Positions 31 to 24,106 of a stretch of 25,497 bases of DNA are shown here, piece by piece. Made by a program: the position numbers and the translations under genes. Source of the DNA: a virus; IMG/VR virus record IMGVR_UViG_3300009526_000056, positions 1 to 25,497 of that record; one strand, given 5' to 3'. Below the pieces are notes generated by a model, which was not told where the DNA came from, did no database searches, and was given only the letters and a program-made list of their open reading frames with translations. Positions within the stretch are counted from its first letter, which is position 1. Each line of letters starts with the position of its first letter.

Positions 31-690
31 TTATGTAGAACTAAGATTGGTTAATGTCTGTATACGCACAGTATAATCAATCTGTATCTGTCTGTTTAAA
101 CTCTTCTGTACTGGGTGGAAAATCACATGTGTAATCAATCGTAAATCAGTTGCACTTCCGTTCCAGGTTTTTAATCCTAGTTCATCAAAAACATAATCAC
201 CATTGAAATCTGTAGAGTTATCAAATGCTTGTTGTCCTGATGGCTCGCCGTAGTCTAACAAACAACTTACCAGTATATCACTGTAAACTTTTCCACTGGT
301 ATGTGTTACAGTAAGTTTGTTTCTAGTTGTATCAGTATTGGCTGAACTATTATCATCAACCACTTTTGAATATGTCGGATTATACAAGTTGGCATTTTGA
401 CCAGTTGTATTTGGTGGAAGATATGTTATTACACCTGTTGGATCAACACTACTACCTCCGTTGCCAAATGCCATACTGTAAATTTGTCCTACTGTTTTGT
501 TAGCAAGACTGTTTGCTAACGATTCACTTATGTTTTCATAGTGTATAGCGTTGCGTTTGTCAACAATAACTTCCCCGCTATTAGGATCAAATATTTTAAT
601 ATGACCACTGATAGCAATTTGTCCGTTTTCATTAGGACGTACTTCTTCTGACTCTGTCACTAAATCCTCATTTGCGTTCTCTTGTTCCAT
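31..690 (-). CDS. Uncharacterised virion structural protein (219 residues)
   Basis: The protein starts with an acidic, disordered stretch of about 25 residues (MEQENANEDLVTESEEVRPN). It then becomes beta-rich: GHIKIFDPNSGEVIVDKRNA, IYSMAFGNGGSSVDPTGVIT, then LITHVIFHPVQKSLNRQIQI and a final DYTVRIQTL strand. I cannot tie it to a named T4 protein. Its position after the giant gene, at the place T4 has gp8 and gp9, and its glycine- and strand-rich make-up suggest a baseplate or tail-fibre attachment protein. The GNGG, PTG and LPPNTTG stretch looks like a conserved loop. The ATG is preferred because a gap of 24 nt with AAGG precedes it. The stop is at 31-33. Confidence 0.55.
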   Translation of the reverse strand: MEQENANEDLVTESEEVRPNENGQIAISGHIKIFDPNSGEVIVDKRNAIHYENISESLANSLANKTVGQIYSMAFGNGGSSVDPTGVITYLPPNTTGQNANLYNPTYSKVVDDNSSANTDTTRNKLTVTHTSGKVYSDILVSCLLDYGEPSGQQAFDNSTDFNGDYVFDELGLKTWNGSATDLRLITHVIFHPVQKSLNRQIQIDYTVRIQTLTNLSST

Positions 691-714: not shown

Positions 715-3700
715 CTAGGATTTTAAAAACAATGCTGCTGGCGTAGTTTGGTCCTGCAATGCAATTCCATTACTAGCAGTATTAGTTCCTTGTGCGTACA
801 TCACATTGGCAGTAACCTGACTAAATGCAATTGTACTTCCAGATGCTGGAGCAGTTGTGAATGTTATTTCTGTACTGGTTAACGATGATTCAGTAATAGC
901 GTAATCAGTATCAGGTACAAGCACTGTTCCGCCTACTGTAACTGTTATTGCGTCTGCAAGTTCTGTACTATCTAAAAGCGTTGGTATAGTTATTGTTGTG
1001 GTATAAATTTTAGTAACACCATCACCCACTGTGGAATCTGTTGCGGTTGCTTGTTGATATGTAGTTGGTAACTGCTCACCTACTCCTACGTCAGAGACTG
1101 TATTGTCAATGGAGTGGGTGTAAACTCCTGTTCCTGCAGTGCCTCTTCGTAATCCGCTTACGGAATTATCGCCTATATTTCTATCTCTGTATGTAATACG
1201 TTCACCACCAATTATAATTTGTCCAAATATTCCTTGTTCAAGATTTGGCTCGCCAAGTTTAGATGCATCAGCTATATAGATTGTATCATCATTTACTGCT
1301 AGATCTTGTGTTAGTGTAGTGGTATTTGTTGTATTTAATTTGAGTAACTTTTGGTTGCCTAACATATCTTGGAATATACGGAAGTTCAAGCTGTTTGGAA
1401 CGACTGTATTTGTAAACATAGTTACTGCTAAAACATCAGCCGCATTTAGAATACTTAAATTAAGTGTTAATATACTGAGGTTATCACTGCCTGTTGCGAC
1501 TGTAAAATCAATTGATGGTCGAAGATAATCACCATTGAGTGTGACAATTAATCTAGCGTTTGCAGTAACCAATCTTCCTAAAGCAAAGTTGTTTGTGTCA
1601 ATGGTTGAACCAACAGTTTCGTCAAAAGTGCTCTCATCATATGCATCTTCATCATATGCTACTCCTGTTGTAATACCTTGAGTGGTTGGACCAACGTAAA
1701 CCTTTGTCATAATATTTTGCTGGGCAGTATCATTAAATGTAGTAATATCAAACAGTGCATCAAATGCGGCACTCACTCTTAGATTTAAATCACTGGTGTT
1801 GATTATGGTGTAATCGGATTCAGTTGTAGTAAAGATTTGTATTTGTGATCCAGCTACTGGTAAAGACTGTGTATTAAATTCAATATACCTATCGCTGCTT
1901 CCATCATATGTGCTAAGAGTCCAATTAACTGCTACATTCTGTTTTACATTATCAACATAAACTAATAGGTCAGAGGTGCTTATTAATGCTTGATTGGTTT
2001 TAGCAGTGGTACTCAAATAGTAAGGACCAAGACTTGATCCATCTCCAGTATATTCTATACCTTCTGGCGGCCGTAGCCTAAATCCATCTCTATCAACTAT
2101 CATGTTAGCAATGTTTGTGCCTTGTAGACTATTTGTAAGTGGATATGTTGACGTACTACCATCATAGTTAAAGTATTCTGCAACACTTGTACTCCAACTA
2201 TATTGTGTTGGTGTTGTTTCTCCAAGAGCAACAATTGTAACCATCTGTGTACTTGTTGGTTGATTTGTAAAAGTTACAGTGGTATCAAATGAACCTTTGG
2301 CTGCAAAAGCATATTCTGTTTGAAGTGTTCCATTTATAAAGATAACCATTTCTACAATTTCAGTAAAGGCAACTGGTATATCTTGTTTCTTATCTACTAT
2401 GGTATTGCCGACAAAACTTTCTTTGTAAAGTTGCGAACCTCCACCGAGTCCATACACTTCGACACTGATAGTATCTCCTACACTAGCGTTTGCACTTGTG
2501 CTTACTGCAACTGTTTTTGTCACCCAATTAATAGTATAAACAGCTGGTGGTAACACTTGGCGTGTAGTTGAGTTTATAACAATTACTTCAACCGGATGTT
2601 GTATCAAACCGCTAAAAATTATGCTTATGCCTGTTGCAGTAAAAACATTACTGATACTAGCAATTTCAAAACCATGTCCGTCTCCATTCCAGTCGCTTCC
2701 TGGACGAGTAAAAACTTTAAGATCTAGTGTATCAAATTCACTTCCTGGTACTAGTTCTTCAGGAGCATGCGAACTGTAAGTATCAATAAATGCTCCACCT
2801 TCAACATTGATATCTGTAGATCTTGTACCTAAATACGTATCTGTAAATGAACTTTCGTATATGACATCTAGTATTGCTGGATCATACGTTGGTAATCCTT
2901 CTGGTCCAAAACTGATATTATCAAATGGATTTATATCATAATTTCCTATATCAAATCCTGTGTTCTGATTGAAGTCTGGAGCATCAACCTGTACACCGGG
3001 ATAATCAATTCCAGTCATTACCTGTGCTAATTCTCTGCCTGGCTCGTTTGGTCCAGGGTTATATAAACCAATTGTTCTGTCTGCGGCGTCTAATGTGCTT
3101 GCATCAACAATGGTATACTTTTCTGGATCAAAACTACTTCCTGATGTGAAGTCAGAAATTGCTTGGTACACTTTTGGTAGGGCAACGTTTACAACTCCAA
3201 CAGTTGGAACCGGAAATCTAACTAATTGATTAGCAATGAATGCAGTATTAGCAGTCCAATCTATCACTTGACTTGTATACGTGATCCTGTTATATGCAAT
3301 AGTAGTAGTGAAATCACGTACCTGTTGTGTTTGTAAGACTGCAACTGCTGTTGCACCTGAGCCGTTGCCACCCGATATGGTAATTGTTGGTGTTGTTATA
3401 TACCCGCTACCAGCTGTAAGTAGAGTGATACTGGTTACAACACCTGCAGTGTTAACAACTGCTCTCAGTGTTGCTTGCGTTGTTGCATCTCCAGTTACAA
3501 CCACTTGCGGAGCAACTGTGTATCCTGTTCCTCCGGTCACAACTGTTACACCACTAACTACCAACTTATAATTTTGATACCATTGGCTCCACGGAAAGGT
3601 TGTCCATATAGAATCTGTACTAGGTACTGCACTTAATGATTTTGGATTTTCACTATCATCCAGTATAGGTGAAACAAACTGATTCAACTGTGAATCATAG

Positions 3701-6700
3701 TAGGCTGGTAAATCAAAATCAGTTACGCTACCATTGTAAGTGTCTTCGCCTTCGTAACGTAGATTAAATTCTCTAACTTGTACATGATAAGGCTTAACTT
3801 CTTTGATATACTCACTAACAAAGTCCTGATTGTCTCTTCTAAAAATAGGATACTCTATCAAGTCACGTATTTTGTGATTTACATCTATCAAACTGGTCTT
3901 AAACAACCAATCTGGAGCAGGTTGTTCGCTCATTATAAATTCAAATGCGAGTATTAACAATTCATTTCTAAATACAAGAAGTTCGTTTGTAAAAATTTGT
4001 GTGTTTAGAGCTTCAAGTATCTGCCTGGTTTCAGTAATTGGTGCTTGATCAAATCTTTGTGCATCAAAAACTTCAACATCAAAGCCAAAATTTCCAACTG
4101 AATAATCCCAAATAGTATTGTCAACTGCAATTGTTCCATCTTGTAAAAAAACTCTTGTCCATTCACCAGTTGTTGTGCTATACTGGTATACTTCTTGTTT
4201 GCCATTGCTGTTTGCTTCTACTGTTGCCCACTGTTCATTGGCTACATTTTCCAGTGCTAATAGTTCACTGTAAACTTTTACATCATAACTTGATGCATTA
4301 GCTGAACTAAATGTAGTACCATCAGAATTCTTTCCATTCCAGTCAATATAACTCCAATATAGATTGGTTTTGTACGTTTGTACTCTAGATAGTAATAGTG
4401 TTTGACCTGCCTCTACAGTATAAATTGTCCATAAGCCTTCGTTGTTAATATCACTTGCTACAAGATATTTGTAACCTACTGCTACCTGTCTAAGATCTTG
4501 ATATGTTAGTTCAGCATATGTTAATAATCTTTTATCCCATGCTCCACTAGCGATGGTTGGCTCTGGTTCCTCACTATTAAGCAACGTTAAACTTTTGCTT
4601 TCCGAAATTGTATACACTGACATAATACTATTTGCACGAGTCATATAATTTTGTAGTGCAAGGAATCTGTCAACGTACAAACTTTGTCTTGGACGAAAAC
4701 TAACACCATATCTATCTGCTAAACTTAATGTTGAATCAGGTACTAGATTACCTACTGTATCTGCTCCACAAAAACTATCAAGTAGTTTTCTATAAAGTTG
4801 AGCACCTAAGAAACTGTTCTTATCACCTACTGTAATTAAGTCGTATTCACTGTGAACGTTATCGTCATTGGCAATTTTATCAAATTCAACATGCAGTATA
4901 GTATTTGTTGCACTTATTAAACTTTTACAATTATAAAGTGTGATTTCATTGGGTGCGATCGCGGCACAATAACTTACTCCACTGCTTCTTGGATTATCAA
5001 TATACTGTGTTATACCACTTGAACTAAGTGTTTTGTTAGGACTTACCGCAGTCAATCCTTTAACCCAATAATAATAAGTTGTAACAAACGTGCCGGCACT
5101 GTCAAGTTGTGTTGTAGTTGTATAACTTACCGTACTGTAAACTGTACCTTCGCCTGTGTAATTTGCAGGTGTTACTGAGCTCTCAATCCATTGGTAAACA
5201 TCTACACTTGATCCGTCAAACAGTTGTCCCCAACGTCTTGCTCTAAAAGCAATGTCATCTTGATTATAGTTTATAAACCTTACTGTGGATAAATCCCACC
5301 ACATTTCACCTAGATGCTCATTTCTCCACTGTGATCCGTAGTTGTTTACAGTTCCAGTATTGTATGCTGCTGGGTCAAGCCCACCTGTGTAATCAATGTT
5401 TGCACGTGCAGCACCAAGTATTTTTCCTTGTATTGGGTCAATAAAATCCAAGTATGTAGTAACTGTATTACTAATATTGTTGTATGTGAATACACTATTC
5501 AATAAAGCAACATCAACAACTGGTGTCTCAGTATAACGTGCTTTCCAGCTTGCTTCATTGTTAGCATTTACCAATTGTGTTACTCTACCAAAGTCACCCG
5601 AACTATCATTGAGATCATCATTTGGTGCACCAACTAATAACGTGCCATCAACGTATGATACTGATGATCCAAACTTATCTAAACTGGTTAATGTTGTATC
5701 ATAAATCTGTTGTCCATAAACAAATTTGCCTGGGTTAGTTGCACTGGCATTTGCGGCATTTAGATAATCATATGTAAATGCCACACCTGATTCGGGTAAT
5801 GGGTCTAATAAATTCGTTGAGCCCGAATCAAAGTATGTTGTGCTGGTATCAAAAGTTGTTGGCAAATATGCAGTTGCATCAGGAGCACCAACTACAAGTG
5901 TATTTGCATCATCACTGATACTTAAACTTGTTCCAAAGTGTGCATAAGTCTGTGGTGCTGGTGCAGTGATTGTCTGTGCATAGATCCAAGGTGTTAAACC
6001 AAGATCTACAAATGCAGTTCCTGTTCCGGGTGCTACTTGTAATTTTATAAACTGCTCACCAGCTGAAACATCAACAAGATTAATCTGCAATGCTCCGCCC
6101 ACACTAGAAGCAGTAATGTTTGGTATATTAGCAGTTGTAATATCTGTAACCAAACTTGCAACAGTGGTGCCAGTGAGTGTCACATAGTAATTGTTAATTC
6201 GAATAGTATCTGTGGCAGTTAAAACCGGATTGGTTACAGTTCCGGTGATAGTTCCAAATAATCTACTTTGATTGATCCAACGCTCAACACTTCCTGCTTC
6301 AGTTTGTACAACGCTATCGTTAGGCATAGCAATATATGCACTGCAATTTGTTGAACACATATCTACAGTTCTACCAAAGAAGTAGTTTCCTCCATTTAAG
6401 GCACTGTTAAATTGTTGTAAGGTAGAGAAACTATTTGTTTCAACTTCTATTATATCACCAACTGTTAGTGTAACTGGATTAAGAGTTGTGCCAATTGTAA
6501 TTACGCTCCCTGCCACGCTAAACTGAGCATTGTTTGCATTACCAGTTGGAATAAGATATGTGCCGTTAAGTGTTACTGACACTGGTGTAGTCGGTGTGAC
6601 ACTAGTTGTGTATGCAACAGTTGCGGCATTTGAGACTTGAAATCTCTCAACGCTTCTGTCAATTATGTAACTTTCACCTGCAAAATCATTTGAACCAATT

Positions 6701-9700
6701 GTAGCATCTGGTGTACCAACTAGTATCTGTCTACCGTCTGTTGTGGTAGAAATATCATAACCAAATTGATCACTTGCTCCTATGCCTGTTGCAGTAAAGG
6801 TGTCTACAAAATCCCAATGTGTTTTCGCATTTATAGTAAGTGTACCACTGCTTATAGCTGATCCTAACACTACATTTGTTCCTACAATAGTATAATCAAA
6901 AAATGGACGTAATAGTTTACTGTCGTTAATCACAGTCATTGAATATATGTCACTAGCAGTGAACAACGTACTAAAACTAAAGTCTGTTGTTGATCCTATA
7001 GGAAAGTAAGTTTGACTCTGTCTTCGAATTATTACGATATCGTCATTTTCATTTGGTGGTGTGGTAAAGTTTACCTGTTGCAAGCCTGCAGTTACTGATA
7101 CAGTATAATCTGCCCCAGCAGTTTGAGCTACATTATTCCTAGTAACTGCAATCTGTGTTTGAGCGGTTGCAACACTTGCTGAAACTTGTATTGTTGGTTG
7201 TATTACAAAATCACTATTTGCACCGTCACCTGTGAATTCCAAGCGTTGATCTTGTACGTTTACTTTGTTGTAAGCATAAACTTTATTATCAGCTGGAGCA
7301 CTTATGTACATCCATTGCTCATCGTTGCTTACTGCTACGCTATAACCAAACTTGTCTGCATCGTTTGTTCCAGTATTAAAGTTTTGATACAGTGCAAAAC
7401 TTCCGTTTGATGCAGTTCTATTGATTGCAGTTGCATAACCTTTATTGGAGTCAGATGCTGGTGCACCAACAATTGCCCATTCTGTATTACCTGCGTCAGA
7501 ACTAAATCCAAATCCTGAAAAAGATAAAGATGCATCTGGTGAAAGAACTGTTTTTTCTAAATAGATGCCGGTGTCATTTTTATTAAAAGCATATACGCCA
7601 CCTATTGAACTTGCATAACCTGTTGCACCTACTAGTAATCCTTGATTGTTTAAACCTTGTGCAATAGTTGTTCCAAAAAGATCATTGATTATTGGTAGTG
7701 TTGCTTGAAGCTCGGTAGCAGTTCCAAATGGATTTTGTTTCTGTAATACTTGCCAATTATCTGATCCATTGTTGTCAACCCAAACTTCATTGCCAGTTGT
7801 AAGACTAGTTGAAAAACTCAACGCTGGTATATCACTTGGTTGTGCAACTCTCACACTCTCAAGCGTAAAGCATCTGCCATCTCCGTTTGTGATTGTTGTA
7901 ATACCTTCGGGTAGGCTCAGTGTCACTGTGAGTGTTTTTAATCCAGGCACAGTTTGCACAATATATGCACCGTCGACGTCTGTATTAAAGAATTTTACAA
8001 TCAAACGTTGCCCAATAATTAAGCCATGTGGCACATCAAACGTAAATGTACTAGTTCCGTTTAGGTTATCAACCGCAGTGGTTAAAGTTGATTTTACTAA
8101 GTTTACTCTATAAATATTCCAATCATAGCTATTAGCTTTAGCAACCCATATATTTGTGCCAACCACAATGTTATCAAGATCATTTACTACATTAGTTAGG
8201 TCATTATAATCAAACACTTTTAAGTTTACATCGTCATAGTTTACATATCCAGCACTTGGAAATCCTACATCTTCTGGAATACTGCCAACAGTTGGTAAAA
8301 TGTTAGTATTTGTTATTTTATAACTTTGTTTGTAAATATCTGAAATCAAAACTGTTTGATCAGCATTGCTTGCTTGTTGTGGATTTATAACTGCAATAGT
8401 ACCTGGGTTGCTTAACAACTTGCTTTCGTCTAGTTGTAATTCAAAGTAGCTTCTATTTGCATTTGCACCATACAATGCTCTTTGTATTGCCCAGTTTTCA
8501 AATATATCATATTCTGCTGTCTCTTTACCAAGATTAGCACTTGTAAATGTTTCTGCAGCAGTGATTGTTCCTTTTGTTCCTAGAAAACTTGCATACAATC
8601 CTGCCTGTGATATATCATCTAAGTTTAGATTTTGCATATATTGCCTTGGACGGAATCCAATTAATCCTAGTCCTAATAGAGTTGCATCACCTTCGAGATT
8701 TGCAGTGTGTATATTATAGTTGTCTTGCAGCTCATCTGCTTTGGTCGCCAAGTTTGGCAATAGACCTTTTTGTATTCTATTGTAATCGCTTTTTATCCAA
8801 TCTGCAAACACAAATGTTCCACTAGGTGGAAGTAATGTAGTAGCACTCCAGTAACTGTTTTTGTATTCTACAATTTGTCCTTTGGTGTAGGCAACATTTG
8901 GCTCCCACTCCTTGACATTATTTTGGTTAAGTATAAAACCCTGAGCATCAAGTGTTCCATTCCAGTCATATACTGTAAAACCATTTATCAACAATCTATT
9001 TTGTCTGGCACCAGTTACTGGCTGATACATTAGGTCGTTAAAAATACTTGTGTTATCAAAAACAATTATGTGCTCATAAGAAGTAAATCTTGCATTTAAG
9101 AAACTAAAAGTATTGTTGTTAAGTCCAATAAGTTTAAGCTCATTATCCAATCTCTCAACTGCATAATCTTCAGAAAAAACTGGTCGAAAGTTTTGATTAA
9201 GCATTATATCGTTTATGCCTTCGCTTGCTAAACTTTCAACAACACTAAAGGGTTGACTTAATTTTAAAACATTCGCCGCTGGATTGAGATTTAACACACT
9301 GCCAACTGTCCAGGACTGCCCTACCCAATATACAAACTCCTGTGCCATTTGTGTCCAGTTAAGTATTAGATCATTTTCTGTGTTATCAAATGTCAGTCCT
9401 TGTTGTTCTAATAATTGTCCATAACTTACTAGGAAATCAACTACTGCACTTTGACTAGTAAACTCATAACCATAAGGCACTTGTACTACGTCATCAGTGA
9501 ATGTTTGAGGGACACGTGCAGTAGTTCCGTTGACTGTAAAAGTTAAAAACGTTCCAGCAGCAGTACTTTTTAAAATATTAAAATAAGGTTTTGTAGTTGA
9601 ATAACCTGCTACACTCCAACCAGTATTAGTTCTTTGAATAATCACCGCTGAATACACTACTTCATTGAAACTTGGATTTTTATATAATGAAAGTTGATAG

Positions 9701-12700
9701 CTCTCATCAGGCAATAACAAGCTACTATTGAGACTATTTGGAGATGATTTTTCAGAAAATATTTTCAAATAACTTTGATCGCTAAATGAAGCCATTCTGT
9801 AACACAAACGTATGTCGAGGTTGCTCAATCTTGTTGTGAGTAAAGTAGTACTATCTAATCCAGATATTCTATTGTAATCTACAATAAAGTTTATATAACT
9901 ATTCTTTGAAGTTCCATCGCCATATATTTGAACTTCGGTAGTGTTAATTCTAAATCGTTTGTTGTACAACCATTGTTTTAAAGTTGCGTCATATTTGTAT
10001 AAATCTCTGTCTGCAAACCAACTGAAGTATTTTGCTGGTTTAGTCAGTGCTAGTAATCTTTGTATCGCAAAAGGATAGTAACTGCTACGTCTCCAAGTAG
10101 TCTGTGTAGGAGCATAATCTCCTGCTACCCACGACTTTTTAAAACTATTAAGGTCATAGCTTCCAACAATGCTTATCATTGGATCAACTAAATTTCCTTG
10201 AGAATCAGTTGGCAAACAGTCCAGCAGTTGTGGACGTATATATCGTGTTTTTGTTACATCACCGGTTGGGTAAGCAATCTTACCGTCAGCCATATCCTGC
10301 CAGAGCACAGTATTACCACTGGTGTATGGTGCAGGTCCGTATGTTGTATTCCACCAGTCTGGTTTTTCACTTAGTCCAACCATTTCCCATGGACGTGTAT
10401 CAGGAGCATCTGTATCGTAAAGTTGGAAATAAATTCCTCTCCAAAAACCCAACAGTGGATCGCCATTTAATCTATTTTCACTTTGACTATAGTTCCAAGT
10501 AAATCCATTGTCAGCATCATATGTTTGATCTTTATAAGGTACTCTCTGCGTTCCTACCCATGAAAGAAAACTTCTATTAAGAATGTTGTTTACTTCTGTA
10601 AGTGTATAATCAGTTGTTCTAAACTGTCCCGGAATAACATCCACTGCTTGTAGAGGTGGATTATATTTTTCCTCAGAAGTTAATTTAATATTGTTATAGC
10701 ATCTTTTTTCAAATTCTAATAGTACACCATTTCTATAATCACCATCATCAAATGCAACTGTTAAACTACCATCATGTCCTTGTATCACATTGGTTGGAGT
10801 TATATAGGTATTATCTAAAAACATCTGTGGCTTATAAACTTGATATAAACCTAACATACTAGGAGTTGCAGGAACATAACTTCCATAGGTAGCAGTATAT
10901 TCATTTATAGTAATAATATCGCCAATTGCTAGTGTTATACTAGTGCTATCAATGGTAATACGAGGGCCATCAGTTGCAACTGTATAATCGTGTCCATCTC
11001 CAACTAGTTGTGTTTGTATTCCAGTGGCTTTTGGAGTCAAGTAAACAAGTATACCTTTATAGTTTGCACTTGTAAAATTGTAACTGTTTAGAGTATCAAA
11101 AGTATGTGTTGTAATTGGACTTACTGTATAAGTTGTTGTATCAAACACAGTCCCACTTGGAATTGCATCAGTCCAGTAAAACGAAGTAGTTTCTGTTTTA
11201 CCTGCATTGATTGCAATCAATGTATCATCAAGTATTTGTGCAGATGTCTTTGATTCCCAGTCGTTAGTTGCAACATATTCTAGTATTTTATTTTTTGTTT
11301 TGTTATATTCGCTTGCATTGAAGTCTAAGGCACGAAAGTACTCAAACTGTCTTTCATTTATAAATGGAGTAGTAAGTGTCAACGGAGCACTTTGCTGAAG
11401 AATAAGGTCACCGTAAGGAATAACATTTCCTAAGTCATGAACGTTGTTTGCACCATGAATTTTACCTGTAAAGTTTTCTAAATTTTGGCAAATTGTTTCA
11501 TAGTGTGTTCTGATAGTACCTAGTGTAAAACTTGCACTATTTTCGTTCATTGCGTTGGATTCTAAGTTATCTGGAATAGTATAAAATCCAATACTACTTG
11601 CACTGTCACTGATTACCTGTGCTTCAATTACTGCTCCAACTGCAGGCAAAGTATTTGGTTGCCCTAATGTATTTGCATTAAATGTAATTTCAGTTACGCC
11701 AGCACTGTTGGTAGCATAGGTATAAGTGCTTGGAAGAACAAACTGACCTTCTACAAAAACCTTTACAGGAATAAGACTACTATCACTTATCACATCAATA
11801 TCTAGAACCAGTGGATCACCAGCAAAATCAAAACTGAAACTTTGACGTTGTACCTCAGTTGTAAAACTGGTTTGCCATCCGATAAGTTTTTCAAATGTGC
11901 TGATACTATTATACTGTCTTACAAATCCTTTGTCAATCTTTTCTGTTTTACTAACTGTTCCGTTAACGTATAAAAATGTGTCAGTATAAAGGTTGTTATC
12001 AAATACAATATCGCCAACGTTGGCAATGGTTAGATATTTCAATGGTTGTTCAATAATACTATCTGTTGCACCACTTCCTATTGCATAACTGAATATTTTG
12101 GTTCCAGCAAAGGTGCTAGATGGATACACTGTGATGTCGCTTAGGCTATACCCACTTGCATCATAGATATCAAATAACGGTGCTTGGTTGGTATCAGTTT
12201 TCTGTTGTGCTAAAATCCATGTAGTCCCGTTGAACCAATAGGCGTTTCCTTGTTCAGTTGCACCAGACAACACAACAACCGTTGTATTTGTTGCTGTATC
12301 AGATACGGTTAAACTTGCTGGTTGTAAATCAATTACATCACCGGCACCAAGATTGACAAACTTTACCGTATATATTTTATTTTTTACTTCTGGATCAATA
12401 TCTGCAGAGAATATTACTCTTGAACCGTCTACAAAACTATATCCATCCACCGCATACCCAGCAGTTCCGTTTATATTTGAAAACGCATCTGTTTCAGCAA
12501 AATCTATTATATCAATTGGAGTAGTTGCAATTGTTCCATAGTTAAAAAGTTTCAAATTCTTCTTAAATTCAAGTATCGGACGTTTTGCTCTTGCATCGTT
12601 ATCTATTAATAACGATGTATTATTGTATGTTGCAGTTGCAGTCAACACATCAATGTGAAACCATCTATTACCTCTGCACCATGCATTTAAGTCAATGCAA

Positions 12701-14283
12701 GCTCTATTCATAAGCATATAGTCTTGAACTGTTGGAGCATCCGAAGTAGCATCAAACCCACCTTCGTCGAAAGTTAGGCTATCAAAAGGTACAGTCTCTG
12801 ATTTGGTAAATGTTTCTGGTGTAACAAAATCTGTTACAGGAAGTAGCTCGATGGCAGTACCTACTCCTTCAACGTAATATTCTATGTTTGCATAACTTAC
12901 CGGAACAACAGATCCTATAAAATTAATTTTCAATCCGTTTGAAAATACCACACCGTTTGGTGAGGTATAGTTCACTTGCCCGAGTATGTCCTCAATTAGC
13001 AAATCTTCGGCATTGGCTTGATCAACAACTCTAATCACACCAAAGTTTGTTTCATCACTTTGATCTTGATAGTAAAGTATATCTAAGTTTGCAGTAATTA
13101 AAGGCTGTCTTTGAAATTCACCTTCTGCATTTTTGTACATAGTTGCACCAGCATACTCAGTTCCATATTGGATTTCTGTTTTGCTTAGATTAGCAACATC
13201 TTGTACTTTTGTAAGTTCCATAAACGGACGGAGAGGGTCGGCATAGTTGAAGTTAATTCTCCACTGTACATAACGCTCGGGATCTGTTGCTAACGGTACA
13301 CTGTTATCAAATGCCGCATTTGGTATTCCTGGATTGTCCTGGTCAAACAACGTGTCATCAAAAGGAGTAAAATTTTCCCATCCTAAGTCAGTATCTGTTG
13401 TAATAATAAGTGTTCGATTTTGTAAATCTACAATACCATCTATTCCACCATTTGCCGCTAAGAACACATCAACAAATTGATTGTTAATATCGCTAAATTT
13501 AAGTGTATCTTCAATTAAATCAGTTGCACCAATGTCAGCAAGTGTAAAGTAAAAGTTTTGTGCAGTTTTTTCAGGAACATTAAATACCACGTCGCCAACA
13601 TCATCACCATTGTTGCTTACACCAAGCACGTCTCTTGAACTTTGATTTGCTTGTTGTGGTAATACTCCTGATGTTCCAGGAACACTTTGTATCCAAAAGT
13701 TTCTACCACTGGTGTTTACATCAAATACGTAATTTCCTTCTCGCACAAGAGTAAGTGTTGGAAGACTTCCAGATTCGCCTGAAAAATTGTAACCGTCGTT
13801 GTATGTAACATCAAATGTATCAGTTGTTGGTACACCATTTGAAAATACATCTACACTGTTTGGTCCTGCTGGTATCCAATAATACTGGCCAAAATTTACA
13901 AACTTGTCAAGATCAACCATTGGATCAAAACTATAATGTTCACTTTCTAAAAGTCTATCATCGCGTGTTACGTTTGCTCCTTGCATCTGCAAACTATCAA
14001 TGATCCCAGGGTATGTAATTGCATTTTCAACAGTACGAGTATCTGTTTTTAGTTGTACAACTCCAGGCTCTAATTGGTAATCTGTTCTTGTCTGTGTTGG
14101 TTCTAGTACGTAACTATCTGATGCAGTTACACCAGGACCAATTTTACGTCCAATATATCCTTCAGTTGGCTTTAACTTGGGATTCTGTGTAAGTTGATCA
14201 AGGGTACTTCTTAGCAGTTGTTTGTTTGCAGGAGTCTGGAAGATTTCTGGTAAAAAATCTTCAGAGCGTATACGCTTAGCCAT
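715..14283 (-). CDS. Giant modular virion structural protein (gp7 position)
   Basis: A single 4522-codon frame, roughly 0.5 MDa, starting 3 nt after the gp6 stop with GGAG 11 nt upstream. I recognise no single T4 homologue. Residues 1-150 (NVTRDDRLLESEHYSFDPMV, then NFGQYYWIPAGPNSVDVF) may anchor it to the wedge. Later landmarks are a WCRGNRWFHIDV block near 537, an aromatic block near 1240-1445 (FLSWVGTQRVPYKDQTYDA, WRRSSYYPFAIQRLL), a CBM5/12-like motif at W1793, seven FG-GAP-like repeats at 2203-2925, a helical block near 3400-3515 (QPAPDWLFKTSLIDVNHKIR), two GxGY repeats near 3575-3650, a second CBM5/12-like motif at W3676, and beta-sandwich-like modules to the C-terminus. There are few cysteines and no transmembrane segment. 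Position after gp6 and composition suggest a peripheral baseplate or tail-fibre-network protein that contacts the cell surface. Its exact role is not known to me. Confidence 0.7.
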   Translation of the reverse strand: MAKRIRSEDFLPEIFQTPANKQLLRSTLDQLTQNPKLKPTEGYIGRKIGPGVTASDSYVLEPTQTRTDYQLEPGVVQLKTDTRTVENAITYPGIIDSLQMQGANVTRDDRLLESEHYSFDPMVDLDKFVNFGQYYWIPAGPNSVDVFSNGVPTTDTFDVTYNDGYNFSGESGSLPTLTLVREGNYVFDVNTSGRNFWIQSVPGTSGVLPQQANQSSRDVLGVSNNGDDVGDVVFNVPEKTAQNFYFTLADIGATDLIEDTLKFSDINNQFVDVFLAANGGIDGIVDLQNRTLIITTDTDLGWENFTPFDDTLFDQDNPGIPNAAFDNSVPLATDPERYVQWRINFNYADPLRPFMELTKVQDVANLSKTEIQYGTEYAGATMYKNAEGEFQRQPLITANLDILYYQDQSDETNFGVIRVVDQANAEDLLIEDILGQVNYTSPNGVVFSNGLKINFIGSVVPVSYANIEYYVEGVGTAIELLPVTDFVTPETFTKSETVPFDSLTFDEGGFDATSDAPTVQDYMLMNRACIDLNAWCRGNRWFHIDVLTATATYNNTSLLIDNDARAKRPILEFKKNLKLFNYGTIATTPIDIIDFAETDAFSNINGTAGYAVDGYSFVDGSRVIFSADIDPEVKNKIYTVKFVNLGAGDVIDLQPASLTVSDTATNTTVVVLSGATEQGNAYWFNGTTWILAQQKTDTNQAPLFDIYDASGYSLSDITVYPSSTFAGTKIFSYAIGSGATDSIIEQPLKYLTIANVGDIVFDNNLYTDTFLYVNGTVSKTEKIDKGFVRQYNSISTFEKLIGWQTSFTTEVQRQSFSFDFAGDPLVLDIDVISDSSLIPVKVFVEGQFVLPSTYTYATNSAGVTEITFNANTLGQPNTLPAVGAVIEAQVISDSASSIGFYTIPDNLESNAMNENSASFTLGTIRTHYETICQNLENFTGKIHGANNVHDLGNVIPYGDLILQQSAPLTLTTPFINERQFEYFRALDFNASEYNKTKNKILEYVATNDWESKTSAQILDDTLIAINAGKTETTSFYWTDAIPSGTVFDTTTYTVSPITTHTFDTLNSYNFTSANYKGILVYLTPKATGIQTQLVGDGHDYTVATDGPRITIDSTSITLAIGDIITINEYTATYGSYVPATPSMLGLYQVYKPQMFLDNTYITPTNVIQGHDGSLTVAFDDGDYRNGVLLEFEKRCYNNIKLTSEEKYNPPLQAVDVIPGQFRTTDYTLTEVNNILNRSFLSWVGTQRVPYKDQTYDADNGFTWNYSQSENRLNGDPLLGFWRGIYFQLYDTDAPDTRPWEMVGLSEKPDWWNTTYGPAPYTSGNTVLWQDMADGKIAYPTGDVTKTRYIRPQLLDCLPTDSQGNLVDPMISIVGSYDLNSFKKSWVAGDYAPTQTTWRRSSYYPFAIQRLLALTKPAKYFSWFADRDLYKYDATLKQWLYNKRFRINTTEVQIYGDGTSKNSYINFIVDYNRISGLDSTTLLTTRLSNLDIRLCYRMASFSDQSYLKIFSEKSSPNSLNSSLLLPDESYQLSLYKNPSFNEVVYSAVIIQRTNTGWSVAGYSTTKPYFNILKSTAAGTFLTFTVNGTTARVPQTFTDDVVQVPYGYEFTSQSAVVDFLVSYGQLLEQQGLTFDNTENDLILNWTQMAQEFVYWVGQSWTVGSVLNLNPAANVLKLSQPFSVVESLASEGINDIMLNQNFRPVFSEDYAVERLDNELKLIGLNNNTFSFLNARFTSYEHIIVFDNTSIFNDLMYQPVTGARQNRLLINGFTVYDWNGTLDAQGFILNQNNVKEWEPNVAYTKGQIVEYKNSYWSATTLLPPSGTFVFADWIKSDYNRIQKGLLPNLATKADELQDNYNIHTANLEGDATLLGLGLIGFRPRQYMQNLNLDDISQAGLYASFLGTKGTITAAETFTSANLGKETAEYDIFENWAIQRALYGANANRSYFELQLDESKLLSNPGTIAVINPQQASNADQTVLISDIYKQSYKITNTNILPTVGSIPEDVGFPSAGYVNYDDVNLKVFDYNDLTNVVNDLDNIVVGTNIWVAKANSYDWNIYRVNLVKSTLTTAVDNLNGTSTFTFDVPHGLIIGQRLIVKFFNTDVDGAYIVQTVPGLKTLTVTLSLPEGITTITNGDGRCFTLESVRVAQPSDIPALSFSTSLTTGNEVWVDNNGSDNWQVLQKQNPFGTATELQATLPIINDLFGTTIAQGLNNQGLLVGATGYASSIGGVYAFNKNDTGIYLEKTVLSPDASLSFSGFGFSSDAGNTEWAIVGAPASDSNKGYATAINRTASNGSFALYQNFNTGTNDADKFGYSVAVSNDEQWMYISAPADNKVYAYNKVNVQDQRLEFTGDGANSDFVIQPTIQVSASVATAQTQIAVTRNNVAQTAGADYTVSVTAGLQQVNFTTPPNENDDIVIIRRQSQTYFPIGSTTDFSFSTLFTASDIYSMTVINDSKLLRPFFDYTIVGTNVVLGSAISSGTLTINAKTHWDFVDTFTATGIGASDQFGYDISTTTDGRQILVGTPDATIGSNDFAGESYIIDRSVERFQVSNAATVAYTTSVTPTTPVSVTLNGTYLIPTGNANNAQFSVAGSVITIGTTLNPVTLTVGDIIEVETNSFSTLQQFNSALNGGNYFFGRTVDMCSTNCSAYIAMPNDSVVQTEAGSVERWINQSRLFGTITGTVTNPVLTATDTIRINNYYVTLTGTTVASLVTDITTANIPNITASSVGGALQINLVDVSAGEQFIKLQVAPGTGTAFVDLGLTPWIYAQTITAPAPQTYAHFGTSLSISDDANTLVVGAPDATAYLPTTFDTSTTYFDSGSTNLLDPLPESGVAFTYDYLNAANASATNPGKFVYGQQIYDTTLTSLDKFGSSVSYVDGTLLVGAPNDDLNDSSGDFGRVTQLVNANNEASWKARYTETPVVDVALLNSVFTYNNISNTVTTYLDFIDPIQGKILGAARANIDYTGGLDPAAYNTGTVNNYGSQWRNEHLGEMWWDLSTVRFINYNQDDIAFRARRWGQLFDGSSVDVYQWIESSVTPANYTGEGTVYSTVSYTTTTQLDSAGTFVTTYYYWVKGLTAVSPNKTLSSSGITQYIDNPRSSGVSYCAAIAPNEITLYNCKSLISATNTILHVEFDKIANDDNVHSEYDLITVGDKNSFLGAQLYRKLLDSFCGADTVGNLVPDSTLSLADRYGVSFRPRQSLYVDRFLALQNYMTRANSIMSVYTISESKSLTLLNSEEPEPTIASGAWDKRLLTYAELTYQDLRQVAVGYKYLVASDINNEGLWTIYTVEAGQTLLLSRVQTYKTNLYWSYIDWNGKNSDGTTFSSANASSYDVKVYSELLALENVANEQWATVEANSNGKQEVYQYSTTTGEWTRVFLQDGTIAVDNTIWDYSVGNFGFDVEVFDAQRFDQAPITETRQILEALNTQIFTNELLVFRNELLILAFEFIMSEQPAPDWLFKTSLIDVNHKIRDLIEYPIFRRDNQDFVSEYIKEVKPYHVQVREFNLRYEGEDTYNGSVTDFDLPAYYDSQLNQFVSPILDDSENPKSLSAVPSTDSIWTTFPWSQWYQNYKLVVSGVTVVTGGTGYTVAPQVVVTGDATTQATLRAVVNTAGVVTSITLLTAGSGYITTPTITISGGNGSGATAVAVLQTQQVRDFTTTIAYNRITYTSQVIDWTANTAFIANQLVRFPVPTVGVVNVALPKVYQAISDFTSGSSFDPEKYTIVDASTLDAADRTIGLYNPGPNEPGRELAQVMTGIDYPGVQVDAPDFNQNTGFDIGNYDINPFDNISFGPEGLPTYDPAILDVIYESSFTDTYLGTRSTDINVEGGAFIDTYSSHAPEELVPGSEFDTLDLKVFTRPGSDWNGDGHGFEIASISNVFTATGISIIFSGLIQHPVEVIVINSTTRQVLPPAVYTINWVTKTVAVSTSANASVGDTISVEVYGLGGGSQLYKESFVGNTIVDKKQDIPVAFTEIVEMVIFINGTLQTEYAFAAKGSFDTTVTFTNQPTSTQMVTIVALGETTPTQYSWSTSVAEYFNYDGSTSTYPLTNSLQGTNIANMIVDRDGFRLRPPEGIEYTGDGSSLGPYYLSTTAKTNQALISTSDLLVYVDNVKQNVAVNWTLSTYDGSSDRYIEFNTQSLPVAGSQIQIFTTTESDYTIINTSDLNLRVSAAFDALFDITTFNDTAQQNIMTKVYVGPTTQGITTGVAYDEDAYDESTFDETVGSTIDTNNFALGRLVTANARLIVTLNGDYLRPSIDFTVATGSDNLSILTLNLSILNAADVLAVTMFTNTVVPNSLNFRIFQDMLGNQKLLKLNTTNTTTLTQDLAVNDDTIYIADASKLGEPNLEQGIFGQIIIGGERITYRDRNIGDNSVSGLRRGTAGTGVYTHSIDNTVSDVGVGEQLPTTYQQATATDSTVGDGVTKIYTTTITIPTLLDSTELADAITVTVGGTVLVPDTDYAITESSLTSTEITFTTAPASGSTIAFSQVTANVMYAQGTNTASNGIALQDQTTPAALFLKS
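3105..3267 (-). other. CBM5/12-like carbohydrate-binding motif 2 in the giant protein
   Basis: Residues about 3673-3727 read DWTANTAFIANQLVRF, then a short insert and KVYQAISDFTSGSSFDPEKY. The order W, TAF, N-LV, K-YQA, SG-F is the same as in the first motif, and as in other phage copies of this module. It lies directly after the GxGY repeats. Confidence 0.4.
3330..3565 (-). repeat. Two GxGY repeats in the giant protein
   Basis: Two copies of a 35-40 residue unit follow each other near residues 3575-3650: GGTGYTVAPQVVVTGDATTQ, then AGSGYITTPTITISGGNGSG. Each has the form G-x-GY, P, a beta strand and a Gly-rich or Thr-rich turn, ending in an Ala/Val strand. This unit occurs in many phage tail proteins. 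It is probably a small all-beta structural repeat. Confidence 0.6.
5510..7680 (-). other. Seven FG-GAP-like repeats: putative interrupted beta-propeller in the giant protein
   Basis: Seven FG dipeptides, each followed about 15-20 residues later by a GAP-like element, occur at residues 2203 (LLVGAT), 2260 (AIVGAPAS), 2312 (MYISAPAD), 2507 (ILVGTPDA), 2636 (AYIAMPND), 2783 (LVVGAPDA) and 2871 (LLVGAPND). Spacing is 52-57 residues between the first three and longer after that, where beta modules are inserted between blades. FG-GAP repeats form seven-bladed propellers in integrin alpha chains. Seven here would be one full ring. The fold is inferred from the pattern only. Confidence 0.6.
8790..8913 (-). 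other. CBM5/12-like carbohydrate-binding motif 1 in the giant protein
   Basis: Residues about 1791-1830 read EWEPNVAYTKGQIVEYKNSY followed by WSATTLLPPSG. This has the spacing of chitin-binding modules of families 5/12: W, then AY, G, V-Y, YW-A and P. In phage tail proteins such modules often help bind surface glycans. The assignment rests on a short pattern. Confidence 0.45.
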
Positions 14284-14286
14284 AGT

Positions 14287-17200
14287 TTATACTACTCCAC
14301 TGTTTGATGCAGTTCTAAGTTGACTGCTTGTTAGTGCATCAATAACTTCAACATCATTAACAGTTGCTGCGTTAACGAATATTTCATTTGATTGAGAACG
14401 TATCTCGTATAAATCACCAAAACTTTTCAACGGATTGGTTGGAACAAGTACAACTGTGCTAATAATACTTCCAAGTTGATCATGTAAGTAACTGCTTAAT
14501 TCAGAGAAGAAGAAAGTATCACCAAAGTCCCAATTTTCAATAGTAAAGTATTGATTGATTGCATTTATCACTTGACTTTTTATTTCACTTGTGCTAACTG
14601 TGCTAATTGTATTTTTTACACATTTAATTGTTGCTCTAAGTTCAGTTGCTGCTTTTGTGCCAAATAAGGGTTTGAACGTCACACTGTTTAGTATAATATT
14701 ATCACTGATCATTTTGTATTGATTAAGTGTGTTATATGCAGTATTAAGTTCATCAATTGTTGGTCTAGCTGGTTCGGGAACTGTTCCAGTTGTGTCTCTA
14801 ATGTAGTTTTGATATGCAGTATAGTATGCTTGTGTAAGCAAATAGATATCAATAATATTAGTTGTACCTGGATCAATACGTCTGCTCAGTGGAGCATTAT
14901 GCCTATACTGGAAATTAAGATCTTGTCTGCCTACGAATGTTTGGTACCCAGTGACTTCGGCGATAGTTCTTACACCATTGTATGCCACAGTTAAGTTATA
15001 AAACTTTTTATCAGTATAAGCATAAAATACCTGTCCATTGATATATTCACTCTTTACTAATTCAATAGCATCTTTGGTGGCTAGTGTACCGGTTACAACT
15101 CCACTTGCCAGTGGTGTATACCTTTCAAGATTATCAAAGTCGATTGTTTGTTGTAGATAGATTCTTTTACTATTTGGGTTTGTGTCTGGTGCAACCAATG
15201 TTTCAAAATAATCTGGATTATCAGGAATGCCGTCATTGTCTGAATCTTTGTAACTTATCCTAACTCTAAAATCATCAATAAAACCATCTGACTCAACTGG
15301 TTGTCCAATAATGTCTAATATCTCGTCACTATTTAAAGGTGTGCTTGCATCGGGTTGATTGTTTGTTTTTAAAACATTGACAAAATCATTTATTACTTTA
15401 CCAGTTTTTGGATCATAAACTTTCTGTGAGCCATCATAGAAAAAACGTGTTTCTAGAACACTTGCCCAGTACCTGTCTAAACTCCTTGAACTGACAGTAT
15501 AGGTTACACCGTCTGTTTGAAAATCGACCAACCAACTATTGTCCAAACCTGTTCCGCTTGTATTCTGTGCATTTGCTAAACTAAAAGTAACGCTACTATC
15601 AAGGTTGCTTGCGGTAATCACATACCAAGTTTCGTTTAGGTTATCATATCCTAATCCAAAGTTTCTGTAGAGTTCAATGTTATCTCTCATTGTTGTTTCG
15701 ATAGCAGTAGGTAAATCAGTAATAAAATTAACAATTACTTGTGTCGGAACTGCATTAGTTGGAATAAAATTATTAAGTGTTACTGGTCCTGTGCCGTCTG
15801 CATTGTTACCAGTTCCTTGATTGGTACCATCAAGTTCTAAATTACTAACAGTTGCCCATAATTCAGTCTTATCACCAGGTAGTGTTGCTGACCCAACTCT
15901 AAGTCTGTTTAAATTATTAAAAACATATCCAGCAGGTGGAACAAATTTAATTAATCCACCTTTTGCAATATACTTTTTATTATCACTTGCTTGTGGACCA
16001 ACTGGTGCTGGTGCACCACTTGCAACAAATTTAAAAAATCCTGTTGTCTCGTTGTTTGATGTCGTGCTTTGCGACCATTCTAAATTTAGTGTTGTCAAAC
16101 TTGGACGAAGAAAGTTTTCATAATAAAACTCCTGCATTCCTCTACTAGAAAGTACAGGCTCGACTTGGTTTACAATAACATCAGTTATGTCATTTTGATC
16201 AATAAACGTAAATGTAAAACTAGGCACTTCTGTATTTTCGTATATCATTCCATCTGATGCAAATACATTGGTGCTTGAATATTTTCCAGTGATATCTACA
16301 AGATCCAAGTATCTACTAGTGCCAATTGAGCTACGATTAACAGCCTTGGACTTGATTATAGTTGAATAAAGCGTATATGGAAAATTATTGTAGTCCTCAC
16401 CATTAACCATTCTATTTTGTGTATAATATCTTGCAGGAGCTCTTTGCTTGATGTCGTTTATATTTTCTCTACTAGCTGCATTGCTCACAGGTTGTGTTAA
16501 TGCACATGTAAGAGTGAGTGTTTCATTTCTTCCTGTCTTAGAAACATATCCAATACTAAGTGTTACATTTTGCATTTCATCTGGATTAATAATATAGTTC
16601 AAACCATTTGAAGAACGCACATAAGTTCTAAATGTTCCAACAGGAATACTACTAAAAACCCCGTCACCAAAGTTTAGATCAATCTGATCGTTTGTTCTTG
16701 ATGTAATAGTGAAATACCTACGTTGTTCTGGAGTAAGTTCTTCTGTAGCACCGGCATAGATGTTTTCTACTTTTTTCCACTCGCTTTGAATAATGTTCTG
16801 TGCATTAAGTTGGTACAACCATGTATCTTCGTTGTTGATTCCCTCAATGTTTACGTTAACAATTCTGTTGCTTATTCTTTCTCCAAGATTAAACTGTTGA
16901 TCTTGTAAACTACCTTGTTTGAAGTAAAAGAAATAACCAGTATTTGCACTAGCATAACCTTGTTTGTCGTTTCTATATAGTATATTTAGGGCACCGTTTG
17001 GTGCAGGTGCTGGTTCGTACAAGTATGTTTCATCTAAACTTGTTGCACTCACTGCTTCAAACGTCATATTAGTTCCATTTACAACTTGACTAAATGGTAT
17101 TACTGGTAAAAATCCCTGTATTAGATTTAATTGATATTCATCAGTTTGCACACCAAGTAAAGTTTGCGTATTACCCGGGCGTCCAAATCTTTGGCTTCCA

Positions 17201-17694
17201 CTAAGTGAGGCATTAACAATTACTGTGAACTGTTCTAGCCAGTTTGCGTTTGTGGTATCATTCCAGTTGACTGTGATGTTTGAAAGATTTACACCTGTAA
17301 AATCGATTACACCTTCTGTAGTACTGATACTTTGTACTTTGATAAAACCTTGTGCCGCTGTATTACGTTTTGGTGTGTAACTTACTAGTTCAGCAAGACG
17401 TACTACGCTGTCTCTTCGTTCAGCAGTATCAATGAAGTTCTCTCTGGTGTTTAGATCATTTCTAAAACTTCCTGCTTGTCCCATAAACGCCATAACATCA
17501 AGCAGTGCAATAAATTCACTTGACTCAATATAGTCATTAAAACTTTCTGGATAGTACAAACGAATGTAGTCTATAAAGCTCTTGCGAAGTGTTTCAAAGT
17601 CATAGCTCTGAAAGTCTGCTTCACGATAAGTTTGGTAGATTCTCTTCCAATCTTCAACACCGAATATACTGGTTTGTCTTGTAGTTTTAGCCAT
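14287..17694 (-). CDS. gp6: Baseplate wedge protein gp6 (gpJ-like)
   Basis: A 1135-residue protein. The N-terminus is a clear gp6 match: FIDYIRLYYPESFNDYIESS, then ALLDVMAFMGQAGSFRNDLN and TRENFIDTAERRDSVVRLAE, in the first 110 residues. A baseplate-J-like middle has FGDGVFSSIPVGT near 350 and RAPARYYTQNRMVNGEDYNN near 418. The C-terminal 120 residues (WDFGDTFFFSELSSYLHDQL) resemble the T4 C-terminal part that closes the wedge ring. gp6 dimers form the iris-like inner ring that changes shape on contraction. T4 gp6 is 660 residues, so about 470 residues are extra, mainly between residues 500 and 950. This insert includes DSDNDGIPDNPD (817-828), like a calcium-binding thrombospondin type 3 repeat. 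The start has AAGGA 9 nt upstream. The giant gene begins three bases after its stop. Confidence 0.9.
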   Translation of the reverse strand: MAKTTRQTSIFGVEDWKRIYQTYREADFQSYDFETLRKSFIDYIRLYYPESFNDYIESSEFIALLDVMAFMGQAGSFRNDLNTRENFIDTAERRDSVVRLAELVSYTPKRNTAAQGFIKVQSISTTEGVIDFTGVNLSNITVNWNDTTNANWLEQFTVIVNASLSGSQRFGRPGNTQTLLGVQTDEYQLNLIQGFLPVIPFSQVVNGTNMTFEAVSATSLDETYLYEPAPAPNGALNILYRNDKQGYASANTGYFFYFKQGSLQDQQFNLGERISNRIVNVNIEGINNEDTWLYQLNAQNIIQSEWKKVENIYAGATEELTPEQRRYFTITSRTNDQIDLNFGDGVFSSIPVGTFRTYVRSSNGLNYIINPDEMQNVTLSIGYVSKTGRNETLTLTCALTQPVSNAASRENINDIKQRAPARYYTQNRMVNGEDYNNFPYTLYSTIIKSKAVNRSSIGTSRYLDLVDITGKYSSTNVFASDGMIYENTEVPSFTFTFIDQNDITDVIVNQVEPVLSSRGMQEFYYENFLRPSLTTLNLEWSQSTTSNNETTGFFKFVASGAPAPVGPQASDNKKYIAKGGLIKFVPPAGYVFNNLNRLRVGSATLPGDKTELWATVSNLELDGTNQGTGNNADGTGPVTLNNFIPTNAVPTQVIVNFITDLPTAIETTMRDNIELYRNFGLGYDNLNETWYVITASNLDSSVTFSLANAQNTSGTGLDNSWLVDFQTDGVTYTVSSRSLDRYWASVLETRFFYDGSQKVYDPKTGKVINDFVNVLKTNNQPDASTPLNSDEILDIIGQPVESDGFIDDFRVRISYKDSDNDGIPDNPDYFETLVAPDTNPNSKRIYLQQTIDFDNLERYTPLASGVVTGTLATKDAIELVKSEYINGQVFYAYTDKKFYNLTVAYNGVRTIAEVTGYQTFVGRQDLNFQYRHNAPLSRRIDPGTTNIIDIYLLTQAYYTAYQNYIRDTTGTVPEPARPTIDELNTAYNTLNQYKMISDNIILNSVTFKPLFGTKAATELRATIKCVKNTISTVSTSEIKSQVINAINQYFTIENWDFGDTFFFSELSSYLHDQLGSIISTVVLVPTNPLKSFGDLYEIRSQSNEIFVNAATVNDVEVIDALTSSQLRTASNSGVV

Positions 17695-17747: not shown

Positions 17748-18128
17748 CTACACGCCCGAGTAAGCGGCTCGCATTGTTTGGTTGTTAAAGAATATGTTTA
17801 GAAGTTCACCTTGTTGCCCACTGACTGTATCAACTTCAAGTTCAATTAAGATTCCGTTTTCTTGTGGATACACATTTATATCGTTCACTTGTATCCGTGG
17901 ATCTTGTGCAACCACACGTTGTATTTCTTTAATAATTGCTTTGTTTGTTGGTTCCCCTTGTGGTTCAAAAATTAGAGAAAACATAGTTGTACCAATATTA
18001 GGACGACCTGGCATTTCACCTTGACGTATGGTCAATGCATTTAACAAATCACGTTTGATTAAATCAAAATCAGTGACTGTATAACTTTTGTACTGGTTAA
18101 TTGTACTATATCCAATAAATGTTGCCAT
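17748..18128 (-). CDS. gp25: Baseplate wedge and sheath initiator gp25 (GPW/gp25 family)
   Basis: A 126-residue protein, close to the 132 residues of T4 gp25. The family pattern is clear: an N-terminal YTVTDFDLIKRDLLNAL helix, then RQGEMPGRPNIGTTMFSLIF followed by EPQGEPTNKAI, an amphipathic helix KEIQRVVAQDPRIQVNDI, and a final strand pair (GILIELEVDTVSGQQGELLN). In T4-like phages gp25 sits in the wedge core, binds gp6 and gp53, and starts sheath assembly through strand exchange with the first sheath subunits. The start ATG follows a 20-nt gap with a late-promoter-like element. The stop TAG is followed within 2 nt by an AT-rich hairpin. Confidence 0.9.
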   Translation of the reverse strand: MATFIGYSTINQYKSYTVTDFDLIKRDLLNALTIRQGEMPGRPNIGTTMFSLIFEPQGEPTNKAIIKEIQRVVAQDPRIQVNDINVYPQENGILIELEVDTVSGQQGELLNIFFNNQTMRAAYSGV

Positions 18129-23800: not shown

Positions 23801-24106
23801 TTAGATACCTAATACTGTTTGTAATGTGGACTTCTGTGGTAGATAGATTGTGGTTCCAGTGACAAAATTAAACAGTGGATCTGGCAATTGGTTTGGGTTA
23901 CGCATAGCAAATACCCACCATAGATTTGAATCTTCATATAGGTCGAACGCCAATAAATCAGGACGTAGGTTATATGTTTCATTGATAGTCATCGACAAGT
24001 CGTCCACCAATTTTGGTATAGGTCGTTCGATCATCAATCCAAGATACTGATTGTTTATTACCGGTGTCTCAAAATATGGGCTGGTATTCTGATATGAAGT
24101 TGACAT
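23801..24106 (-). CDS. gp53: Baseplate wedge protein gp53-like, LysM-like core only
   Basis: A 101-residue protein. A longer version from a GTG at 24112 is possible, but the ATG at 24104-24106 is preferred: AGAAGGGA lies 8 nt before it, whereas it would be only about 2 nt from the GTG. That ATG overlaps the upstream stop as TAATG. The core reads RPDLLAFDLYEDSNLWWVFA followed by MRNPNQLPDPLFNF, which matches the T4 gp53 pattern RPEELANAIYGNPQLYWVLL and so on, a LysM-like fold in the inner baseplate. In T4, gp53 joins neighbouring wedges around the hub. T4 gp53 is about 196 residues, so this one keeps mainly the LysM-like part. The next gene begins one base after its stop. Confidence 0.75.
   Translation of the reverse strand: MSTSYQNTSPYFETPVINNQYLGLMIERPIPKLVDDLSMTINETYNLRPDLLAFDLYEDSNLWWVFAMRNPNQLPDPLFNFVTGTTIYLPQKSTLQTVLGI

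Follow-up and report, generated by a model that had tools for sequence, protein, structure and literature searches.

The window analysed here is a 25.5 kb viral record (IMG/VR IMGVR_UViG_3300009526_000056, positions 1 to 25,497), in which the minus strand carries all of the long genes with family matches. One of these genes (715-14283, minus strand) encodes a giant virion structural protein of 4,522 residues, recognised as an open reading frame (ORF) and by a match over the scaffold to phrog_10938, a virion structural protein family (E 2e-294). An ORF of about 4,500 residues is intact in the 26 relatives with sufficiently long contigs. The homologue in the jumbo phage PA5oct, gp355, is annotated as found in virions by electrospray ionisation tandem mass spectrometry (ESI-MS/MS). 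Residues 2199-2921 of the giant protein are predicted with high confidence to form a closed seven-blade beta-propeller of the integrin alpha (FG-GAP) type. Residue numbers refer to the translation of 14283-715 (minus strand), in which residues 2201-2925 correspond to window positions 7680-5510. In order along the protein the predicted propeller comprises the following parts.

7534-7689, minus strand: blade 1 (residues 2199-2250), FG 2203 and GAT 2219
7363-7533, minus strand: blade 2 (residues 2251-2307), FG 2258 and GAP 2273
7249-7362, minus strand: blade 3, strands A-C (residues 2308-2345), FG 2312 and SAP 2328
6823-7248, minus strand: insert 1 (residues 2346-2487), two related beta modules in the C-D loop of blade 3
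6778-6822, minus strand: blade 3, strand D (residues 2488-2502)
6640-6777, minus strand: blade 4, strands A-C (residues 2503-2548), FG 2507 and GTP 2523
6454-6639, minus strand: insert 2 (residues 2549-2610), one beta module in the C-D loop of blade 4 that is a distant relative of insert 1
6391-6453, minus strand: blade 4, strand D (residues 2611-2631)
6265-6390, minus strand: blade 5, strands A-C (residues 2632-2673), FG 2636 and AMP 2652
5998-6264, minus strand: insert 3 (residues 2674-2762), an alpha/beta module in the C-D loop of blade 5, unlike the other inserts
5950-5997, minus strand: blade 5, strand D (residues 2763-2778)
5686-5949, minus strand: blade 6 (residues 2779-2866), FG 2783 and GAP 2799, with a long B-C loop
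5521-5685, minus strand: blade 7 (residues 2867-2921), FG 2871 and GAP 2885

Each FG is followed after 14-16 residues by a GAP-like triplet. Literal GAP is found in only three of the seven motifs in the window; across 48 relatives, which are 38-91% identical to the window, the column consensus is G-A-P nearly everywhere. Nearly all of the 14 half-motifs persist in these relatives. The glycine of FG is kept in 44-48 of them at every motif and the proline of GAP in 38-48 at six of the seven motifs, this number falling to 28 at motif 2, where serine is the alternative. Strict FG...[GSA][AT]P pairs occur five times, against an expectation of 0.10 and a maximum of two in 2,000 shuffles of the region. 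The giant protein matches the Pfam family FG-GAP_2 (PF14312) in four stretches (E 8.8e-15) with 55.1 bits, well above the curated cut-off of 23, and 47 of the 48 relatives match it too. Profile searches of PDB sequences with the propeller profile and the scaffold profiles returned nothing significant.

AlphaFold2 (AF2), run on the 48-sequence alignment, gives the propeller a predicted local distance difference test (pLDDT) score of 87.6 and a predicted template modelling (pTM) score of 0.88. In the model 28 strands make up a closed ring of seven four-stranded blades, in strict A-B-C-D order throughout. In structural comparison with VIA-align 2 the model superposes on the headpieces of integrin alpha (Z 36.6, 2.5 Å over 357 residues, model residues 33-765), and integrins fill all of the best 50 entries. 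Foldseek agrees, with integrin alphaV as the best match (E 2e-9). An earlier note on this DNA had proposed that seven FG...GAP pairs at 5510-7680 form a propeller of the integrin alpha type. The pairs are present, conserved and beyond what shuffling yields, and the predicted ring is closed and matches integrins, as proposed. Neither of the outcomes that the note named as refuting it, an open ring or blades of unrelated fold, appeared in the prediction. The calcium-binding loop that the same note suggested seeking between FG and GAP was searched for as a DxDxDG-type motif; the window has none, and no consistent one appears in 47 relatives.

Inserts of about 142, 62 and 89 residues interrupt blades 3, 4 and 5. 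In the predicted model they sit between strands C and D of these blades, the chain leaves the ring past strand C, builds one or two modules and re-enters as strand D. The three D strands read HWDFVDTF, FSTLQQF and PWIYAQT, each just before the next FG. The extra sequence thus lies after motifs 3, 4 and 5 as the earlier note had it, not between blades as it supposed but within them. Its further suggestion that the inserts resemble beta modules elsewhere in the protein is borne out for insert 1, weakly for insert 2 and not for insert 3. The two modules of insert 1 (1a and 1b) match each other and modules near the C-terminus of the giant protein (near 4076-4150 and 4417-4487) in comparisons by hidden Markov model (HMM). 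Insert 2 resembles the C-terminal modules weakly, and matches the HMM of module 1a at E<0.01 in 10 of the 48 relatives. HMM searches found no second copy of insert 3 anywhere in the giant protein.

The loops at which modules come and go among the relatives are fixed. Five relatives that form a clade have, following strand D of blade 2, an extra beta module that belongs to the insert-1 family (E 1e-8 to 2e-15). A module resembling carbohydrate-binding module (CBM) family 5/12 is nested in insert 3 in 14 of the 48 relatives, and in one of these also in insert 1. Another nested module type, 'GTTDFT', lies within insert 1 in four relatives and within insert 2 in a fifth. On a tree built from the blade sequence alone, the beta module between strands D2 and A3 requires one change (a gain), the CBM5/12-like module five and 'GTTDFT' four.

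An HMM built for the CBM5/12-like module finds 147 copies in 75 related proteins. One copy lies outside the propeller, at residues 1790-1834 of the window's protein (8782-8916, minus strand), and has the best score, 24.4 bits against a Pfam cut-off of 26.2 (PF02839). Alignments to the jumbo phages CBB, PBECO4, PA5oct and Atu_ph07 break at about 1795-1845, where this copy sits, and it is perhaps a second removable cassette.

The propeller falls exactly between two conserved scaffold parts.

7714-8760, minus strand: scaffold N-terminal of the propeller slot (residues 1842-2190)
3694-5505, minus strand: scaffold C-terminal of the slot (residues 2927-3530)

The N-terminal part and the part at 2903-3530 are homologous to the giant virion proteins of PA5oct, Atu_ph07, SCTP-2, CBB and PBECO4. 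AF2 models the scaffold at 2915-3560 with a pLDDT of 80.6 and a pTM of 0.54, and a fold search of this model against the PDB gave nothing above Z 5.2. Among 79 different scaffold sequences the propeller is present in 72 and missing from seven, namely two environmental relatives and the five isolate jumbo phages. The length of the slot ranges from about 120 to 1,170 residues. In the isolates, FG-GAP families of Pfam have no match in the four scanned, and the blade HMM matches none of the five; profile searches revealed no propeller in the slots of PA5oct and SCTP-2, where a diverged one is still conceivable.

The two environmental relatives (L139 and L141) retain an intact scaffold with a slot of about 150-180 residues (around 2021-2198 and 2024-2179). 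Joining the flanks of the propeller in the window (2031-2200 and 2901-2990) gives a sequence that aligns to L139 over 264 columns with no interruption (E 5e-35), which makes L139 a clean empty site. The presence of the propeller requires two changes on the tree. In the simplest history the propeller was gained once, ahead of the environmental clade, and lost once, in L139/L141; two gains are possible. In five contigs of 300-344 kb the giant gene is the sole detectable match to FG-GAP_2. No relatives of the propeller were found in the bacterial and archaeal genomes or in the INPHARED phages searched.

A repeat unit at residues 3576-3674 (3262-3558, minus strand) matches phrog_460 and occurs as a single copy in the window's protein. 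In Atu_ph07 this type of repeat occurs several times, mainly within the region that matches the propeller slot. Several matches to baseplate PHROG families were not recovered in the other members tested and were not used; we put them down to the repeat near 3576-3674, which was included in longer pieces of close relatives.

Several baseplate genes precede the giant gene and a short gene follows it.

23801-24112, minus strand: small wedge protein, placed like gene 53 of T4 (match to phrog_7145, a baseplate wedge subunit family, E 1e-22)
18149-20386, minus strand: gp5-like baseplate hub and tail lysozyme (phrog_13211, E 1e-28)
17748-18128, minus strand: gp25-like baseplate wedge protein (phrog_43, E 8e-12)
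14287-17694, minus strand: gp6-like baseplate wedge protein, directly upstream of the giant gene (phrog_219, E 7.5e-27)
31-690, minus strand: protein of 219 residues after the giant gene (phrog_11259, function unknown, E 2e-74)

The family phrog_219 comprises baseplate wedge subunits and includes T4 gp6. The order 53-like, gp5-like, gp25, gp6-like and giant protein parallels 53-5-6-7 in T4, and the giant protein is in the place of T4 gene 7. In PA5oct, CBB, PBECO4 and Atu_ph07 the gene directly upstream of the giant homologue is annotated as a baseplate wedge subunit; SCTP-2 has no annotated gp6. The giant protein has 4,522 residues and T4 gp7 has 1,032, with no detectable sequence similarity between them: for both scaffold profiles the hhalign probability for gp7 is under 1%, and the PHROG of gp7 (964) is unmatched. 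As neither the sequence nor the model of 2915-3560 links the two, the wedge identity stays positional and we do not assign the giant protein to the gp7 family. The gp6-like protein is also long, at 1,135 residues against 660 in T4, and other baseplate proteins of these phages seem to be enlarged too. Small uncharacterised genes follow the giant gene in PA5oct as well. At the other end of the window (24919-25497, minus strand) a frame that runs off the end contains acidic low-complexity repeats, with units such as 'DDFGEINSPAQV'.

Integrin alpha subunits (for example alphaM, alphaX, alphaL and alphaV) share with the phage domain the seven four-stranded blades, the FG and GAP motifs on the same strands and the presence of a domain plugged into the ring. 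The two differ in that identity is about 17%, the phage protein lacks Ca2+ loops, its inserts are in the C-D loops of blades 3-5 and nothing points to a beta subunit. The phage domain is also part of a virion protein, and we do not claim that it is a member of the integrin alpha family. In leukocyte integrins the alpha-I domain sits between blades 2 and 3, and the extra beta module of the five-relative clade is at the same junction. The FG-GAP_2 family, whose curated cut-off is passed, differs in that the blades here are split by inserted modules.

FG-GAP propellers are already known from giant viruses and from single phage proteins. A related ring is predicted for the Atu_ph07 'hemagglutinin' (A0A2L0UZX4), for a protein of cyanophage S-TIM5 (H6WG31) and for giant-virus FG-GAP proteins in BFVD. 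Each of the Atu_ph07 and S-TIM5 entries is a stand-alone protein of about 400 residues, unlike the domain described here, which is part of a protein of 4,500 residues beside gp6. In the giant proteins of PA5oct, Atu_ph07, SCTP-2, CBB and PBECO4 homologous scaffold flanks the slot at either end, and the slot itself holds about 118-1,072 other residues. We found no paper describing such a domain. For a propeller plugged into a giant protein next to gp6, whose consecutive blades contain modules, we found neither a paper nor an isolate, and this arrangement appears to be new.

We propose that the propeller is a plug-in domain: its slot is variable, is flanked on each side by a conserved scaffold segment and belongs to the protein next to gp6. 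The two ends of a closed ring adjoin, so the ring could be absent and the scaffold remain unbroken. Blades 3, 4 and 5 would present small beta modules on one face, through their C-D loops, and some relatives have additional modules, a few of them resembling carbohydrate-binding ones, in these loops or where blades 2 and 3 meet. Such a peripheral platform on the baseplate wedge may display modules that hold or orient parts of the baseplate and fibres, or that make weak contacts with the host surface. On balance we consider it probable that this integrin-type plug-in propeller serves as a peripheral display or docking platform of the baseplate. We infer its place in the virion, its exposure and its function, and the 'receptor-binding platform' of the earlier note would be an interpretation of the same kind. 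That modules turn over, that some are CBM-like and that the slot varies all point towards exposure.

Several observations weigh against this proposal. The carbohydrate-binding-like modules fall short of the Pfam cut-off, the copies nested in propellers scoring 17-18 bits, and they are absent from the window's own propeller. The inserts evolve no faster than the blades, which counts against direct, fast-changing receptor binding. The wedge role of the giant protein is assigned from gene order. The propeller is not detectable in any phage isolate of the collection searched.

The propeller could instead be mainly an assembly or docking part, whose modules bind phage proteins such as fibre adaptors or neighbouring wedges and never the host. 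Few parts of the region are as conserved as insert 3: its mean pairwise identity among close relatives is 0.78, compared with 0.57-0.61 in blades 1-2. Such slow evolution favours partners that do not change, phage proteins for instance. The same virion protein carries further beta modules of the insert-1 family close to its C-terminus, in keeping with such a role. Strict docking fits less well with the seven relatives that keep the scaffold without a propeller, and with the turnover of modules at fixed loops; we regard it as a serious contender that falls somewhat short of an even chance.

Slightly less probable, in our judgement, is that the propeller is a direct receptor-binding head, its loops and modules binding glycans or proteins of the host surface as integrins bind their ligands. 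The integrin alpha fold, the baseplate operon, the variable slot and the nested CBM5/12-like modules, with their roughly five gains or losses, would all suit such a head. It sits poorly with the missing calcium loops and with inserts that show no fast evolution. In propellers the C-D loops face away from the side on which integrins bind their ligands, and it is on these loops that the conserved inserts are placed, which calls for caution with the integrin analogy.

It is very improbable that the propeller and its modules are neutral padding, a generic large spacer in a giant protein. The wide range of slot lengths and the isolate phages that live without a propeller would allow it; motifs and glycines that are near-invariant down to about 38% identity show long purifying selection, and the simplest reading of the tree has a single loss of the propeller among 74 environmental relatives. 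That the FG and GAP motifs arose by chance in beta-rich repeats, and that the ring is not of the integrin type, is barely credible even with three literal GAP triplets in the window, being ruled out by the shuffles, the Pfam match and the motif conservation and opposed by the AF2 ring and the integrin matches of Foldseek and VIA-align.

These results place an integrin-like propeller in a giant protein of the tail-baseplate operon of environmental jumbo phages. The removable slot, cleanly empty in one relative, and the fixed loops at which modules turn over amount to a natural experiment on how surface-exposed phage parts are built and swapped, for which L139 and L141 are useful natural controls, and the function of a baseplate part becomes a testable question. 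A bolder possibility, which we hold only tentatively and think rather unlikely, is that jumbo phages evolved in parallel to animal integrins an FG-GAP adhesion platform, with swappable domains in a removable wedge cassette, for host recognition. If the proposed display or docking platform is correct, phages would use for this purpose the same kind of platform as animal adhesion receptors.

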